Assembly (NCBI GenBank): GCA_029862185.1
Contig: JAOTXX010000015.1
Span: 1 to 61,308 of the forward strand
DNA: 61,308 bases
Source of the DNA: Myxococcales bacterium
Lineage (GTDB): Bacteria; Myxococcota_A; Polyangia; Polyangiales; Houyiibacteriaceae
Direction: 5' to 3'
Of this stretch, positions 43,121-49,011 are shown one piece after another. Position numbers and translations under genes: made by a program. The notes under the pieces were generated by a model, which was not told the origin of the DNA, searched no databases, and worked only from the letters and a program-made list of their open reading frames with translations. Position 1 is the stretch's first letter; each line of letters opens with the position of its first letter.

Positions 43121-43672
43121 GTGGCGAAGGACGAGGAGGAGCTCTGGCAAAGTGAGGTCCTAGTCAGCGATTCGATTGGCCGCCTAATCGAGTTCTGGGG
43201 GTTCAAGCGAAACATGGGGCGCCTTTGGGCGGTTCTGTACTTGTCCGACCGTCCGCTCAGCGCCCCCGAAATGCAAGATCGGCTTCAGCTCAGTAGCGGC
43301 GCGGTTTCGATGACCCTCAACGAGCTCACTCGCTGGGGAGTGGTCAAGAAGGTCTGGCTCCAAGGCGAGCGGCGCGATCACTACGCGGCCGAAGGCAACT
43401 TCTGGAAGATGATCTCTCGCGTCTTCAACGAACGCGAACGCGTCGAGGTCCTCGACGCCATCGACCTCATGGAAGACGCGATCGAGTTCTTGAAAGACAA
43501 AGCCAAGGAGCCCGAAGACCGGAGCAGGGCGCAATTCCAAGAAGAACGCATTCGCGAGCTCCTCGACCTCGCGCGTCTTGGCAAGCAGCTGCTCGACGCG
43601 TTGGTCAAGGACGCCAAAGTCGATGGAAGCCCCTTGATGAACGTGCTACTTGGCGGAACCGACAAGCGCTGA
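43121..43672 (+). CDS. GbsR/MarR-family winged-helix regulator
   Basis: A 183-residue protein. The N-terminal half has a winged helix (PLSAPEMQDRLQLSSGAVSMTLNEL and GVVKKVWLQGERRDHYAAEG) of the GbsR/MarR type; the rest is a long helix for dimerisation. Start is GTG 43121, with a weak ribosome site. It converges with the esterase gene. Confidence 0.85.
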   Translation: MAKDEEELWQSEVLVSDSIGRLIEFWGFKRNMGRLWAVLYLSDRPLSAPEMQDRLQLSSGAVSMTLNELTRWGVVKKVWLQGERRDHYAAEGNFWKMISRVFNERERVEVLDAIDLMEDAIEFLKDKAKEPEDRSRAQFQEERIRELLDLARLGKQLLDALVKDAKVDGSPLMNVLLGGTDKR

Positions 43673-43695
43673 GTGCGGCGCCGACCCGGTCGCAT

Positions 43696-44736
43696 CTAAG
43701 CTTGCGCGACGAATTCGTGCCTGGGCTCGCGCGGATGTTGGAGCGCGCGGGCCAAGAACGAGAGCTGTTCGCGCCAGCATCGGCGCGCTTGGCGTCGCCA
43801 GACCAGCGCATGAAACGCGTGGAGCTCGCCTTCGTAATAACGCGCTTCGCATTCGACACCCATCGCCTTGAGCGCGCGGTCGAGGCGGCGCGTGTCGTCG
43901 AGCAAGGGATCGCGGGTGCCGATGGGCACGAAGAAGGCGGGAAGGGCGCGGTCCGGTCGCTCGCGTCGCTCGAAGACGTGCAGCGGGTCGGCGAGGTCCA
44001 GCCCACCGGGCGCGTGATCGTGAAGCACTCCGACGTACAATTCGTTCATGCCTTCGAGGATGTCGTTCACCCAGCGCGGCAGCTTGCGTTTTCGGTTCAA
44101 ACGCCCGGGGTTGGTGATTTGAAGCGGCGCGCATGCAGGGGCAACCGCGGTTGGCACCAAGCCCGTGGCAAACGCACGCTGGGCAAAGGGCTCGGGACGC
44201 CGGTAACAGCAACAGATGGCGAGTGCGGTGGCTAGATTCCCACCCGCCGACTCGCCTGCGAACACCAAGCGGCTCAGGTCACCGCCGTAGGCTTCGGCGT
44301 GTTCGGACGCCCATTCGAGCGCCGCGCAAACATCGGACACGGCCGCTGGATAAGGGTGCTCGGGCGCGAGCCGGTAATCGATGTTGAACACCAAGTAGCC
44401 CGCTCGCGCGAAGGCGAGCCCCATCAGCCAGTGCGTGTTCTTCGACAAGAGGTTGAAGCCGCCACCGTGCATGTAGAGAACGATCGGCAGGCTGCCGGAC
44501 CGCTTCGCGGGGCGGTAGATATCGAGCCTGTGACGCGGATTGCCACCGTGCAGGTACGCAACGTCTCGGATCACCTCTACCCCATGCTTGGCAGGGTTCG
44601 AAAGCGGATGAAGTCGCCCGAGCCGCGCTAGGCTTCCAAAAAAACCCTCGCCGATGATGGCATTGGCCTGGCGTCGCAGCCGCTTGCGCATGCGCTGCAG
44701 ACAGGACATAGCCGAGGGCTTGGGGGGCATGAGCAA
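43696..44736 (-). CDS. alpha/beta-hydrolase esterase (HSL-like)
   Basis: A 346-residue esterase with the oxyanion motif LYMHGGGFN, the nucleophile elbow FAGESAGGNLA, the acid in GTRDPLLDD and the base in ELHAFHAL. This combination is the hormone-sensitive-lipase (family IV) type that cleaves short acyl esters. Start at 44736 or an internal ATG two codons later. No signal peptide is obvious. Confidence 0.88.
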   Translation of the reverse strand: MLMPPKPSAMSCLQRMRKRLRRQANAIIGEGFFGSLARLGRLHPLSNPAKHGVEVIRDVAYLHGGNPRHRLDIYRPAKRSGSLPIVLYMHGGGFNLLSKNTHWLMGLAFARAGYLVFNIDYRLAPEHPYPAAVSDVCAALEWASEHAEAYGGDLSRLVFAGESAGGNLATALAICCCYRRPEPFAQRAFATGLVPTAVAPACAPLQITNPGRLNRKRKLPRWVNDILEGMNELYVGVLHDHAPGGLDLADPLHVFERRERPDRALPAFFVPIGTRDPLLDDTRRLDRALKAMGVECEARYYEGELHAFHALVWRRQARRCWREQLSFLARALQHPREPRHEFVAQA

Positions 44737-44836
44737 CTTGTATCACGGTCTTGAAAAAGGCCGCTGGAATCGGCGCACTCTTGCGCGATTTCGCGGATTT
44801 TTTGTGGTTTATTGGCGCGCGGCGTACTTCTCGAGG

Positions 44837-45241
44837 ATGTCTGCAGCGAGCTCGAATTCGGTCGTTCTAGCACTGCTCGCAGCGCTGCTCGTTGCTGGCG
44901 TTCCCAGCCCGGGGCACGCGGGGTCCTCGAGCCACATCGACGCGTTCCTCGTGCGGCAGAAGATCCACAACGACCTCCCGAAGATCAACCGCTGCTACGA
45001 GTCTGCGCTCCGCTTTGAGCCCGAGCTCGCGGGCAAAGTTTCGGTTCGCTTCGCGGTGGTGCGCAAGGGCTACGTCCGGGGCCTCCGGATCGTCGAGAAC
45101 ACGACCGGCAACGACCGGGTCGAGCGCTGCGTTGCTCGCGTGGTCAGCGCGATCCGATTCCCACGACGCCGAACGGGCAAGAGCCTCAGCTTCACCTTCC
45201 CATTCGTGTTTGCTCCGCAAGAAGGCCGCTGGGCGCCCTAG
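44837..45241 (+). CDS. secreted AgmX/PglI C-terminal domain protein
   Basis: A 134-residue protein with a signal peptide (VVLALLAALLVAGVPSPGHAG). The mature part matches the AgmX/PglI-type domain seen in Myxococcus motility proteins, a TonB-like fold: INRCYESALRFEPELAGKVS, FAVVRKGYVRGLRIVENTTG, VERCVARVV and a final FPFVF. ATG 44837 has only a weak ribosome site; the frame is open further upstream. Confidence 0.75.
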   Translation: MSAASSNSVVLALLAALLVAGVPSPGHAGSSSHIDAFLVRQKIHNDLPKINRCYESALRFEPELAGKVSVRFAVVRKGYVRGLRIVENTTGNDRVERCVARVVSAIRFPRRRTGKSLSFTFPFVFAPQEGRWAP

Positions 45242-45311: not shown

Positions 45312-45731
45312 TCATTCAGGCAGGTGCGCGCTCGCGTGCAGCATGCGGAGCGACGCCTCTTTCCAGCCATATGTCACCGCTGAGCATACCTCGAAGCGGG
45401 CTCTGGTAATCCACCATCGGCCGTCGATGCGGCGGTACTCGTCCTCGTAGTAGCCCCCGCACACGCTGACGGTTTTTGTGTGGGTGTTCATGAGGTGATA
45501 CACGAGGCCCCAGCGCGCGTGTGCTTCATCGGGACCGGTGACCTCGATGTGCGGCGGGCCCCCATGATGCATCTCGATGATGTGTGTCTGGCACGCGACG
45601 TTCTTGAAGACCTCGTAGAGCCCGTCCCGATGGTGCACGAGCCCAACCGGGCCATCGTAGTGAATCTCGACCGGGCCCTCGAGGAAGCAATCGCGAACGC
45701 CCTCGACGTCCTTATTGTTTCTACAACACAT
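45312..45731 (-). pseudogene. 5'-truncated SnoaL-like gene
   Basis: The 139 codons encode the second part of a SnoaL/NTF2-like domain (VRDCFLEGPVEIHYDGPVG, YYEDEYRRIDGRWWITRARFE). The normal first helix of the family is absent: homology begins right at the IS junction, and the sequence beyond the IS is the dif site and an unrelated gene. The ATG (45731-45729) uses one base supplied by the IS, so any product would have lost about 20-30 residues. Confidence 0.65.
45726..45730. repeat. target-site duplication, left copy
   Basis: ACACA immediately before the IS left end, identical to 47326-47330 immediately after its right end. Confidence 0.85.
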
Positions 45732-47325
45732 GTCAAAACCAGGCGTTGGTGTCCGGTGGTTGTGCCAGTTAGAAATGTCCGGTACCGAATGGTGACTGCG
45801 GGGTGGTGGGCCCGCAGGGGGCAGGGCGGTTGGCGACCTGAACCCCTTGGTGAATCAGGGGGAACGTGAGCACCGGGCAGGAGGCGGACGACTTGAGATG
45901 GGGCCGGCGCCACGTCGGACAGCGGGCTCGGTTCAGGGACCGGGAGGCGGCAACCGGTCAGCGAAGCGGTCGCGGACGATGCGCTTTTCACGCTTGCTCT
46001 TGGCGGACTTGACGAGCTCCTGCTCCTTTTGTTGTTGGCGCTTGCGGATTTCGGTGAGCGCGCCGCTCAGGAGCTTGTTGTCGACGATGGAGCCTTGGGT
46101 GACGCAGCCGTCTTTGTGAAACGGGCGAGCGGCAAGGGCGACGCCCTCAAAGCGAATCGACACACGGCCGTCTTCGTACTCGACGACGGTGACACGCTTC
46201 TTCGCCGCAGCTTTGGCTTCCTCGGTGGGCTCGAGCAGGTACATCGTTCGTTTGTGGTGCACGGTGAGCTGCGCGGTGACGCGCCGCTCTTCTTGCCAGG
46301 TGAAGATGTCGTCGAGGCAGTCACGCTCGAGCAAGGGCCGATGCGCATCGTGGTCGTTTCGCGCTGAGCGTCCGAAGCGTCGATTGTAGTCGTCCATGAA
46401 CTCGGGCAAGTACCGATTGGCGTCGTCCATCGTAGAGATCCCGCGCAGCCGGAGCTCCTTGACGAGTCGGTCTTGAAGCGTCTGGTGCGCCCGCTCGACG
46501 CGGCCTTTGGCCGCCGGGGTATTGGCGCAAATCACGTCGATATTGAGGTCGCTCATCGCGCGACCAAACTGCGTGAAGCCGTCACCGGCTTTCGGACGCT
46601 TGGCATTGACGCGGAATACGCCGGCTTTGTCGCTGTACAACGCCACCGGCTTGCCGTGACGCTCTAGATACGAACGGGTCGCATGGAAGTAACTGAACGC
46701 GGACTCGGATTCGCACATGCGAAGCGCCATGAGCTTCCCGGTCGCATCATCGACGTAGACCAGGAGCACGGACCGAGGTCCGCGGTCCTCGAACCAGTGA
46801 TGGTCCGAGCCATCGATCTGCACGAGCTCGCCGTAGCAATCGCGACGGTGACGCGGCTGCTGGACGCGTTTGTTGCGCTGACGGCGCGTCAGCCAGATGC
46901 CGTCGTCGATCATCCACTGTCGGAGTGTCTCGGTGGCCACACGGATGTCGTGCTGTTCGAGAAGCTTTTCCTGCGCGAGCGTCGGTCCAAAGTCAGCATA
47001 GCGCGCCCGGACGAGCGCCAGCGCTTCTTTTCGAAGCTCCACGGGCAAACGTCGATTGCTTCGGCCGCGCCGTTTCGACCCGAGGCCCGCTACACCTTCT
47101 TGAGCGAAACGCCGGCAGATGCGTCGCATCTGCCGGTCACTGATGCCAACGATCTTGGCGCCAGCCGTCTGTGTAAGCCGTCCATCGGCTATTCGAAGCA
47201 CTACCTGCAGTCGGTCCATTTCTCGCGTGCTCAAGCTCGTCAAATCGTCCGTCATCGATGCCGAGTGCACGAAAACCGGACATTTGAAAATGGGAGAAAT
47301 AGGACATTACTAAATGGGGCTTACA
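45731..47325 (-). mobile_element. IS1202/ISNCY-type insertion sequence
   Basis: 1595 bp bounded by TGT...ACA ends and flanked by the direct repeat ACACA (45726-45730 and 47326-47330). The imperfect terminal repeats TGTCAAAACCAGGCGTTGG (left) and TGTAAGCCCCATTTAGTAA (right, reverse complement) each continue to TGTCC at base 24 and then a second TGTCCGGT about 24-26 bases further in. One intact transposase gene fills most of it. The right end lies 5 bp from dif. Confidence 0.9.
45933..47270 (-). CDS. ISNCY/IS1202-family transposase
   Basis: A 445-residue DDE transposase. The N-terminus has a helix-turn-helix (GRLTQTAGAKIVGISDRQMR) and ISNCY-type blocks (YADFGPTLAQEKLLEQHDI, TLRQWMIDDGIWL). Candidate catalytic residues are in QIDGSDHHW, LYSDKAGVF and AKGRVERAHQ. 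The gene looks intact. GTG 47270 or ATG 47255 are possible starts. The 200 bp between its stop and the left IS end hold no gene. Confidence 0.93.
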   Translation of the reverse strand: MHSASMTDDLTSLSTREMDRLQVVLRIADGRLTQTAGAKIVGISDRQMRRICRRFAQEGVAGLGSKRRGRSNRRLPVELRKEALALVRARYADFGPTLAQEKLLEQHDIRVATETLRQWMIDDGIWLTRRQRNKRVQQPRHRRDCYGELVQIDGSDHHWFEDRGPRSVLLVYVDDATGKLMALRMCESESAFSYFHATRSYLERHGKPVALYSDKAGVFRVNAKRPKAGDGFTQFGRAMSDLNIDVICANTPAAKGRVERAHQTLQDRLVKELRLRGISTMDDANRYLPEFMDDYNRRFGRSARNDHDAHRPLLERDCLDDIFTWQEERRVTAQLTVHHKRTMYLLEPTEEAKAAAKKRVTVVEYEDGRVSIRFEGVALAARPFHKDGCVTQGSIVDNKLLSGALTEIRKRQQQKEQELVKSAKSKREKRIVRDRFADRLPPPGP

Positions 47326-47330
47326 ACACA
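47326..47330. repeat. target-site duplication, right copy
   Basis: ACACA between the IS right end and the first base of the dif XerC arm. Confidence 0.85.
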
Positions 47331-47358
47331 ATTTCGCAGAACGTATATTATGTAAACT
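47331..47358 (+). other. dif: dif site (XerC/XerD recombination site)
   Basis: The 28 bp read as an 11-base XerC arm ATTTCGCAGAA, a 6-base centre CGTATA and an 11-base XerD arm TTATGTAAACT. The XerD arm is identical to that of Bacillus subtilis dif as I remember it and close to TTATGTTAAAT of E. coli; the XerC arm shares the TCGCA..AA core. dif is where XerCD resolves chromosome dimers, normally one per chromosome near the terminus. No second copy is seen in the window. Confidence 0.9.
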
Positions 47359-47377: not shown

Positions 47378-48946
47378 TTAGGGCCTGCAGGAGAGCGCGG
47401 CGAGTCGTTCTTCGACGTATCGGGCGGTTTCGGGATCCCCAGCCTTCTCGGCCCAAGTCCCGAGCCGCGCTCGGACGCTTGCGCAGCGCGGTCCTTCGCG
47501 GACGGTCGCGACGAGCGCGTCGACCGCCTCGCGAGTCTTCGCCGCGTCGTTTGCCCTGGTGGCCAAGTCGTATGTGGGAACGATGATCGGTCTCGGCCAC
47601 GGCGGTGACGGCATCGACGCGACCGCTTCGCGCAGCTTGTCGTGGTCGCCGTGCCGAGCGGCGATGCGGGCGAAGTAGAAATGGATGCTCGGGTCGTCCG
47701 AGTGGTCCCGAAAGAGCGCGCGGTCGTAAGCTTCTTGGCTTGCATACGCTTGGCTGGCCGCGTGTGTCTGCAGCGCTGAATAACCGAGCAGCCCGAGTCC
47801 GAGCACGCCGATTGCAATCCTCCAGCCTCGGCTCCGCGACACGGCGCGCACGACGTATGGCGACATGGCCAGAATCGCGAGAATCGCAGACATGTACAGA
47901 TACCGGTCGAAGCCCATCCAGAACGCGCCCGATACGATGGCCACCGGCGCCAAGGTCAGAATCGCGCCGACCGCATATGCAAGGCCCGACAAATCGCGCC
48001 GGGAAATCAGAAAACCCAGACCGAGCAGCGCGACCGCGAGCCCGACCCAGTCCGACGACGACCAGGGCCCAAACAAAACCCAGGAGAGCGACTGCATGGC
48101 CTCGGCGCGGAAGCTCAGCAGCGCGGCTGCGCCCTTCCCCACGAGCTTTGGAACCGACGACCAGATGTCGGGATCGGCGAACACGTTTTCCGACGCACCG
48201 AGTTGACCTTGAAATGGCGCAAATGCAGCCCGAAGAACGAGATGAACCGCAATTCCCGCGGCAATCGCGCTCCCCGCCCTCCGTGATTGCGCCGCTTGTG
48301 TGCGGTTGGCCCAGGCCAGCCAGCCGGCCAGCGCGGCGATCGCAAATGGCAGCTTGGAGCTCGCGCCGAGAAACGCCACGAGGCCCAGCACGAACAGCTG
48401 AGCCCATTGCGGGCGCGGCGTGGCGCTCATCCGGCTCAACCAGAACACGAGCGCCACGAGCCAAAATCCCGCGAGCAGGTCGGAGCGCCCATTGATCCAC
48501 ACATACGATTCGACGTGCACCGGGTGAAGAAAGAACAGCGCGGCGAGCCCCGCGGCCACAAAGTCGTTCGTCTCGCTGTCGGCACCTGACGCCGTGGGAC
48601 TCTGGCTCCGAAGCACGACGAACAGGAGCAGGCTCGTTGCTGCGTGCAAGAGCGAACTCACCGCGTGATGGAGCCAGGGTTCCGGTGCCAAGAGATGCGT
48701 CGCGATCAGCGTCAGCATCGTCGCCGGCCGATACGGGCCGACCTTGTCTTCGACGAACAAGTAGCTCGCTGCGTTGCGTTTGAAAACTGCCCCGAGCTCG
48801 GCCCAATCCGCGTAAAAATAGTTGCGGACCATGTGCCAGTCATCACCGACCCAGGTGCCAGACAGCCCGACCCAGGTCACCGCCCATGACACCGTGACCA
48901 CCACGATCGCGAACGCCCCAAGGCGAAGCCCATGCCGTCGTTCCAT
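47378..48946 (-). CDS. GT-C-type membrane protein with C-terminal TPR-like part (TMTC/DUF1736-like)
   Basis: A 522-residue polytopic membrane protein with about ten hydrophobic segments. The block FFLHPVHVESYVWINGRSDLLAG resembles TMTC-type O-glycosyltransferases of the GT-C fold, and the N-terminal WVGDDWHMVRNYF supplies an acidic pair typical of that active site. The last 130 residues are soluble and helical. ATG 48946 is preferred (AGGA nine bases upstream) over 48967. Its stop is 20 bases from the dif site. Confidence 0.8.
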   Translation of the reverse strand: MERRHGLRLGAFAIVVVTVSWAVTWVGLSGTWVGDDWHMVRNYFYADWAELGAVFKRNAASYLFVEDKVGPYRPATMLTLIATHLLAPEPWLHHAVSSLLHAATSLLLFVVLRSQSPTASGADSETNDFVAAGLAALFFLHPVHVESYVWINGRSDLLAGFWLVALVFWLSRMSATPRPQWAQLFVLGLVAFLGASSKLPFAIAALAGWLAWANRTQAAQSRRAGSAIAAGIAVHLVLRAAFAPFQGQLGASENVFADPDIWSSVPKLVGKGAAALLSFRAEAMQSLSWVLFGPWSSSDWVGLAVALLGLGFLISRRDLSGLAYAVGAILTLAPVAIVSGAFWMGFDRYLYMSAILAILAMSPYVVRAVSRSRGWRIAIGVLGLGLLGYSALQTHAASQAYASQEAYDRALFRDHSDDPSIHFYFARIAARHGDHDKLREAVASMPSPPWPRPIIVPTYDLATRANDAAKTREAVDALVATVREGPRCASVRARLGTWAEKAGDPETARYVEERLAALSCRP

Positions 48947-49011
48947 CCCAAAAGATCCTACTGACATCAGCCGAAACGAAGCGAGCTTTCGGTAGCAGCC
49001 ACTACCTCCCC

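Follow-up and report, generated by a model that had tools for sequence, protein, structure and literature searches.

An IS1202-family insertion sequence five base pairs from the XerC arm of a chromosomal dif site in Myxococcota

The window, by which we mean the whole stretch of 61,308 nucleotides that was analysed (a contig from a member of the Myxococcales, class Polyangia), contains a small insertion sequence (IS) docked exactly 5 bp from the XerC arm of the chromosomal dif site, at which the sister chromosomes of the bacterium come apart. We are highly confident that this is best explained by an IS of the ISAjo2/ISAba32 type that inserts target-specifically beside chromosomal dif, likely steered by XerC, at a site that can be reused. 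Read directly on the plus strand around 45.7-47.4 kb, the order is CTACA, ACACA, IS, ACACA, dif, with ACACA flanking both sides of the IS and its right-hand copy directly touching the XerC arm. The features are as follows.

45312-45731, minus strand: SnoaL-like gene, N-terminally short, with its break at the far side of the IS (PF13577 match)
45721-45725: CTACA outside the far duplication, probably the last bases of an older left end
45726-45730, no strand: far copy of the 5-bp target duplication, ACACA, from the sequence
45731-47325, minus strand: IS of the IS1202 family (ISAjo2/ISAba32 subgroup), 1,595 bp, left end towards dif; outermost bases, read directly, TGTCAAAACC (45731 side) and GGGGCTTACA (47325 side)
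45731-45754, plus strand: right terminal repeat TGTCAAAACCAGGCGTTGGTGTCC
45738-45783, plus strand: two inner copies of the right repeat (45738-45757 and 45764-45783), 12/20 alike
45933-47270, minus strand: transposase of 445 aa, catalytic residues D153, D214 and E259, with Q266 at E+7
47275-47318, minus strand: two inner copies of the left repeat (47299-47318 and 47275-47294), 15/20 alike
47302-47325, minus strand: left terminal repeat TGTAAGCCCCATTTAGTAATGTCC, matching the right end at 13/24 bases
47326-47330, no strand: dif-side copy of the 5-bp target duplication, ACACA, from the sequence
47331-47341, plus strand: dif XerC arm ATTTCGCAGAA
47342-47347, plus strand: dif 6-bp spacer CGTATA
47348-47358, plus strand: dif XerD arm TTATGTAAACT

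The transposase gene is on the minus strand, and its upstream (left) end therefore faces dif. In the assembly to which the window belongs (4,285,816 bases in 169 contigs), the transposase is present once and the dif pattern is matched once; with a single occurrence of each, we estimate from the genome size that their exact adjacency would arise by chance about once in a million. The direct repeat is in fact 9 bp long (TACAACACA, at 45722-45730 and 47322-47330), the first four bases of its right-hand copy being the IS's own end. A 9-bp target duplication was considered and ruled out, since every relative ends in TGT...ACA and other copies duplicate 5 bp. The boundary of the IS is fixed by its right end, TGTCAAAACC, which is identical in four relatives (L030, L097, L108 and L109). 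As in the IS1202 family, the ends are 5'-TGT and ACA-3'. The terminal repeats match at 13/24 and 13/26 bases, below the published range (about 22-29 bp with at least 15 matches). Near each end we found a second, inner copy of the terminal repeat, a trait described for the ISAjo2 type; these inner copies are presumed to be binding sites of the transposase.

The transposase scores 472.7 bits against the NCBIfam model NF033594 (the ISNCY model, cut-off 250), and D153, D214, E259 and Q266 (E+7) are invariant across 20 aligned members. A glutamine seven residues past the catalytic glutamate, in place of lysine or arginine, characterises the IS1202 family in the account of Harmer et al. (2023; PMC10132070). 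Identity is 50.5% to the transposase of ISKpn21, 47% to that of ISLad2 and 47-50% to the Acinetobacter copies. In a tree that took in short-duplication members, with no named long-duplication member as outgroup, it falls within a Myxococcota clade (100/98) among short-duplication members that include ISKpn21, ISLad2 and those of Acinetobacter; a copy from G063 (L185, 35% identity) was tried as outgroup and rejected as too distant, with a long branch. Short target duplications, of 3-6 bp in this subgroup, are present in the window (ACACA), at both flanks of the L030 copy (TCGGA) and in G383 (CCGGA). On these sequence traits, the element is assigned to the ISAjo2/ISAba32 (short-duplication) subgroup of the IS1202 family. 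An AlphaFold2 model (mean pLDDT 73.8) has two N-terminal HTH domains, an RNase H fold, a beta-barrel and a C-terminal helix, and its best Foldseek matches are IstA (1.2e-09), a CAST TnsB (1.5e-09) and MuA (5.3e-06), with low TM-scores because the domains are placed differently.

The identity of the target site rests on comparison with relatives. The identical 28-bp dif is found once in each of seven congeners, with close variants in other genomes, and genes for an esterase, a MarR-like regulator and a 529-aa membrane protein adjoin it in several of these congeners. The genome of the window encodes a XerD-like protein (357.7 bits, above the cut-off) and a XerC-like protein. Two closed relatives allow the equivalent site to be placed on the chromosome: in G043 (10.327 Mb) dif is at 4.670 Mb and dnaA at 9.822 Mb, 5.15 Mb apart, and in G383 (10.754 Mb) they are at 2.878 Mb and 8.361 Mb, 5.48 Mb apart, so that dif is within about 1% of diametric opposition to dnaA in both. 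The 169-contig assembly makes the position of dif relative to the origin unreadable in the window genome itself, which is what could be said for a plasmid-type pdif, or a spurious dif, in place of a chromosomal one. We give this reading next to no credence, given the single match in the genome, the same 28 bp beside the same chromosomal genes in congeners and the equivalent site at the terminus in both closed relatives; on these grounds a plasmid pdif origin is ruled out. As an observation apart, most congeners have the block of MarR-like, esterase and 195-aa genes on the XerD side of dif and the window has it on the XerC side (window 43121-45241, 47378-48967), and the 529-aa gene adjoins the XerD arm in the window, G002 and G012; dif seems to have been flipped relative to its neighbours in the window lineage.

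The initial annotation had set the IS end, the ACACA duplication and the XerC arm directly side by side, had called the element IS1202-type and compared its placement with that of ISAba32-like members, and had taken the target for a chromosomal dif, a site that has to stay functional. Direct reading confirms the first to the base; the NF033594 score, the conserved D/D/E plus Q and the tree bear out the second by placing the element in the ISAba32/ISAjo2 subgroup; and the single match, the same 28 bp in congeners and the presence of XerC-like and XerD-like genes uphold the third, a chromosomal dif that is kept intact.

The position beside dif recurs well beyond the window. We collected 73 distinct left ends without reference to dif and built an unfiltered logo of their flanks. 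The information in this logo is confined to positions -33 to -6, which are the 28 dif bases, and the five bases between left end and dif are random. The far arm (XerD, TTATGT) is the best conserved in the targets, at least as well as the near arm. A dif-like site lies 5 or 6 bp away from 57 of the 73 left ends, and from 28 of the 35 outside Acinetobacter, percentages that describe an Acinetobacter-rich sample of what the searches returned and not natural frequencies; in a control with shuffled flanks, such a site was found at 5 or 6 bp in 37 of 14,600. Of all 173 IS-end-like positions, a set that includes right ends and chance matches, 52 have a dif-like site (at most three mismatches, distances of 0 to 32 bp) exactly 5 bp away and four have one 6 bp away, with a single case for all other distances together. 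About ten left ends, mostly from Acinetobacter, have no dif-like neighbour. Left ends keep the 5-bp distance also in hosts whose XerC arm has become NNGTCCGATAA. Judged by these flanks, related copies target dif at a fixed distance and in a fixed orientation, with the exceptions named below. The Xer-site targeting proposed in the initial annotation was thereby checked against related copies, which are not inserted at random, and a comparison of the 5-bp repeat in related genomes without the IS did not refute it either.

The window IS is a single copy in a fragmented assembly, and recurrence is for this reason seen only in its relatives. Intact, truncated or relic elements lie beside dif in at least 10 further genomes of the phylum. 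A congener (G009) has a decayed copy (L097) 5 bp from an identical dif, with TCGGC on one side and TTGGG on the other in place of a matching duplication. Two other genomes (G011 and G015) retain about 60 bp of left end beside dif; that these dif-side ends are right ends in the opposite orientation was ruled out, the motif being found also in the left end of L031. In G012 the contig breaks at CTACA plus 5 bp. The clearest case comes from another family of the order, where G383 has an intact 4,311-bp element (L188, 3664-7974) that, with CCGGA on both sides, lies directly against dif. It encodes a 479-aa transposase and carries as cargo a gene for a CobW/G3E-type GTPase (PF02492). In its congener G043 the flanks are homologous (about 90% identity) and the element is absent, which makes this the empty site. 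An empty site had been asked for as a check on the window element: it was obtained for this relative, occupied in G383 and empty in G043. For the window copy the search went through the SnoaL-like and other flank genes; no congener has a SnoaL-like gene beside dif, and the search met no genome that shares the far flank. In other classes with the NNGTCCGATAA arm, left ends, mostly truncated, lie 5 bp off in G091, G351, G329 and G368, and G340 has a relic.

The exceptions are of a few kinds. In G336 (L186; L196 around 6168) a decayed copy is found 5 bp beyond the XerD arm, contrary to the usual orientation. Other copies lie in a multi-copy dif-like repeat or at degenerate dif-like sites (L175, L177, L030). 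The closest relative of the window IS (82-83% identity; L030, L032) occupies, in G017 and G015, a degenerate dif-like sequence whose spacer is 7 bp long, and G015 also holds an intact dif elsewhere with another left-end stub. Separately, some genomes of other classes contain a repeat of about 60-90 bp (GGGGATAGGACATACAAGCTGGGTTCTGGCACAACGTCCGAGTATGGGCGTTATGTTAA...) in 10-40 copies on both strands, in which a dif-like site stands beside a stretch resembling the IS left end. It is found in G089, on C105 (L197, L198) and C119 (L199), and also in G131, G157, G386, G372, G145 and G283; in L199 a phage-type tyrosine integrase (PF00589) adjoins one copy. It may represent a mobile repeat, a series of dif modules or an array of integrase attachment sites.

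Some left ends that lack an adjacent dif have another kind of neighbour: six of them face, across 5 bp, the right end of another element. A junction search over all loci returned ten distinct junctions in which a right end is followed by 5 or 6 bp and a left end, and six of the ten (L036, L039, L054, L066, L077 and L202, the locus of ISKpn21) have a dif-like site upstream, adjoining the same five bases. The only simple reading of these arrangements is that the same bond was used a second time, the later element entering between dif and the earlier one. The locus L039 is from Acinetobacter indicus and the spacer of its site reads TATACA, or TGTATA on the opposite strand, the spacer of most chromosomal dif sites tabulated in PMC10132070. 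The accessible part of that paper yielded no description of stacking. As the stacks show, a dif that is already occupied has no immunity, and the order of insertion can be read from the distance to dif.

Stacks also bear on whether any targeting is needed at all. The flanks of dif are gene-poor and differ between congeners, so that elements inserted elsewhere might be purged and those at the terminus tolerated, the clustering being passive. We regard this as highly improbable: selection cannot give an exact 5-bp placement in one orientation, cannot put a second copy at the same bond, and would have to account for single-copy elements at a 28-bp site in genomes of 4 to 11 Mb. Target-specific insertion beside dif is the reading that we retain.

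Older insertions appear to leave traces. We compared 44 distinct dif sites from the phylum. Nine have TACA exactly 5 bp outward of the XerC arm, and at any other XerC-side offset up to 24 bp it occurs in at most one; TGTA 5 bp outside the XerD arm was found in none of the 44. In five of the nine, TACA belongs to an IS end or to a contig break at such an end, and the other four (G008, G016, G018 and G046) have no recognisable IS; TACA in these four is best read as the last remnant of an IS. A stub of intermediate size is present in L055 (near 2882-2905), where 18 bp of left end, TGTTAGAACCCATTTAAT, lie between two copies of GTTTT inside a stack, a stage between a complete copy and a relic of four bases. 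In the window, the succession CTACA, ACACA, right end is probably a stack after the near-complete loss of the older copy, and CTACA as an older left-end stub would account for a direct repeat of 9 bp instead of 5. By our estimate, four given bases occur by chance about once in 500 at this G+C content. The SnoaL-like gene at this flank matches PF13577 from profile position 21 at residue 5, so that about 16-20 N-terminal residues of the domain are gone. With only four to six bases remaining, too few to identify an element, TACA in the IS-free congeners and at the window's far flank might instead be host sequence, an extended contact of XerC. We consider this unlikely, since three congeners (G002, G003 and G007) and most of the phylum's other dif sites lack TACA, and since there are intermediates, namely left ends of 60 bp (G011 and G015), an 11-bp end with alterations (G001), a motif of the inner left end (G002) and the 18-bp stub between its GTTTT repeats (L055).

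We propose that a DDE transposase resembling TnsB, IstA and MuA would join the ends of the element to a staggered cut 5 bp outside the XerC arm. The left end would land towards dif, and the 5-bp duplication would form with all 28 bp of dif left intact. The site would be reusable because each insertion recreates the target bond: later copies would enter between dif and the older copy, and old copies would decay, leaving short left-end stubs beside dif. The transposase would most likely be steered by XerC or the XerCD complex on dif and not solely by the bases of the DNA. Family, ends, duplication, distance, orientation, recurrence and the stacking with its reuse of the bond can be read in the sequences compared here, and guidance by dif-bound XerC is the step that we infer and favour. 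An interaction of the transposase with XerC at dif has been suggested (Harmer et al., PMC10132070). Our reason for favouring it is that the target tracks the host's own dif despite a differing XerC arm, with the far XerD arm well conserved.

The transposase might also read dif DNA itself through its own HTH domains, with neither XerC nor XerD. We hold this to be rather unlikely, although the IS contains no accessory gene, the 28-bp logo is equally compatible with direct reading, and degenerate dif-like sites (L030, L175, L177) are used too. Two observations weigh the other way, neither of them decisive: the target follows the host dif across the XerC arms TTTCGCAGAA, TCGTATAA and GTCCGATAA, and the best-conserved arm is the far one, XerD, which is a better fit to a bound recombinase complex. 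Insertion on the XerC side leaves the 28 bp of dif untouched. FtsK acts through XerD, so that the XerC side may be the tolerated one. We lean, by a little, towards a broader proposition in which dif is a reusable, polarised landing pad: ISAjo2-type transposases would read the host's XerC-dif complex, and copies would accrete by age, the newest at dif, with stubs that can be dated. If this is true, the flanks of chromosomal dif sites record past invasions across phyla. The following of the host dif despite a different XerC arm makes guidance by XerC directly testable, and such elements could serve as markers for finding dif.

The initial annotation had presented insertion at a chromosomal dif as an unusual case, and this part does not hold. 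In Acinetobacter, Harmer, Pong and Hall (2023; PMC10132070) had already described ISAba71, ISApi2 and ISAlw22 next to chromosomal dif sites, primary or secondary, and the at least 10 further genomes of the phylum described above add to them. Taken as a whole, the initial interpretation is partly supported. For Acinetobacter, the literature already documents ISAjo2-type elements that insert 5 bp from the XerC arm, at pdif as well as at chromosomal dif, and it adds ISKpn21 and ISSen13 to the list (PMC10132070). A literature search for IS1202 together with Myxococc* found no paper. As far as the literature found shows, the phylum, the closed occupied and empty pair, the stacking rule and the relics are new; Siguier et al. 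(2023; Plasmid 127:102696) may contain part of this. These results extend a targeting strategy of Acinetobacter and of enterobacterial plasmids to another phylum, with chromosomal dif sites as targets, and G383 and G043 provide a clean comparison of an occupied with an empty dif.

Compared with known systems, the window IS is closest to ISAjo2, ISAba71, ISAba32 and relatives of Acinetobacter (PMC10132070). It shares with them a length of about 1.5 kb, a transposase in the range of 441-457 aa, TGT...ACA ends, inner end repeats, a 5-bp duplication and a left end 5 bp from the XerC arm in the same orientation, with chromosomal dif also used. It differs in being from Myxococcota, in its transposase (45-50% identity), in its weaker terminal repeats (13/24), in the dif arm ATTTCGCAGAA and in having no dif modules nearby. 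ISKpn21 and ISSen13, from plasmids of Enterobacteriaceae, belong to the same subgroup and have 3-5 bp duplications beside dif-like sites (PMC10132070), and ISKpn21 is itself stacked against another copy in L202; unlike the window IS, they are at plasmid dif-like sites, and ISKpn21 carries an extra gene. IS1202 proper and the long-duplication members are similar at the family level of the transposase by the account of PMC10132070, but are set apart by their description, with duplications of 16-28 bp and no dif targeting reported there. A broader likeness is to Tn7, guided by TnsD to attTn7, which has a TnsB-like transposase and TGT/ACA ends and inserts in one orientation at a safe site beside an essential conserved sequence, whereas the window IS is without TnsA, TnsC and TnsD and has as its target a recombination site, not glmS.
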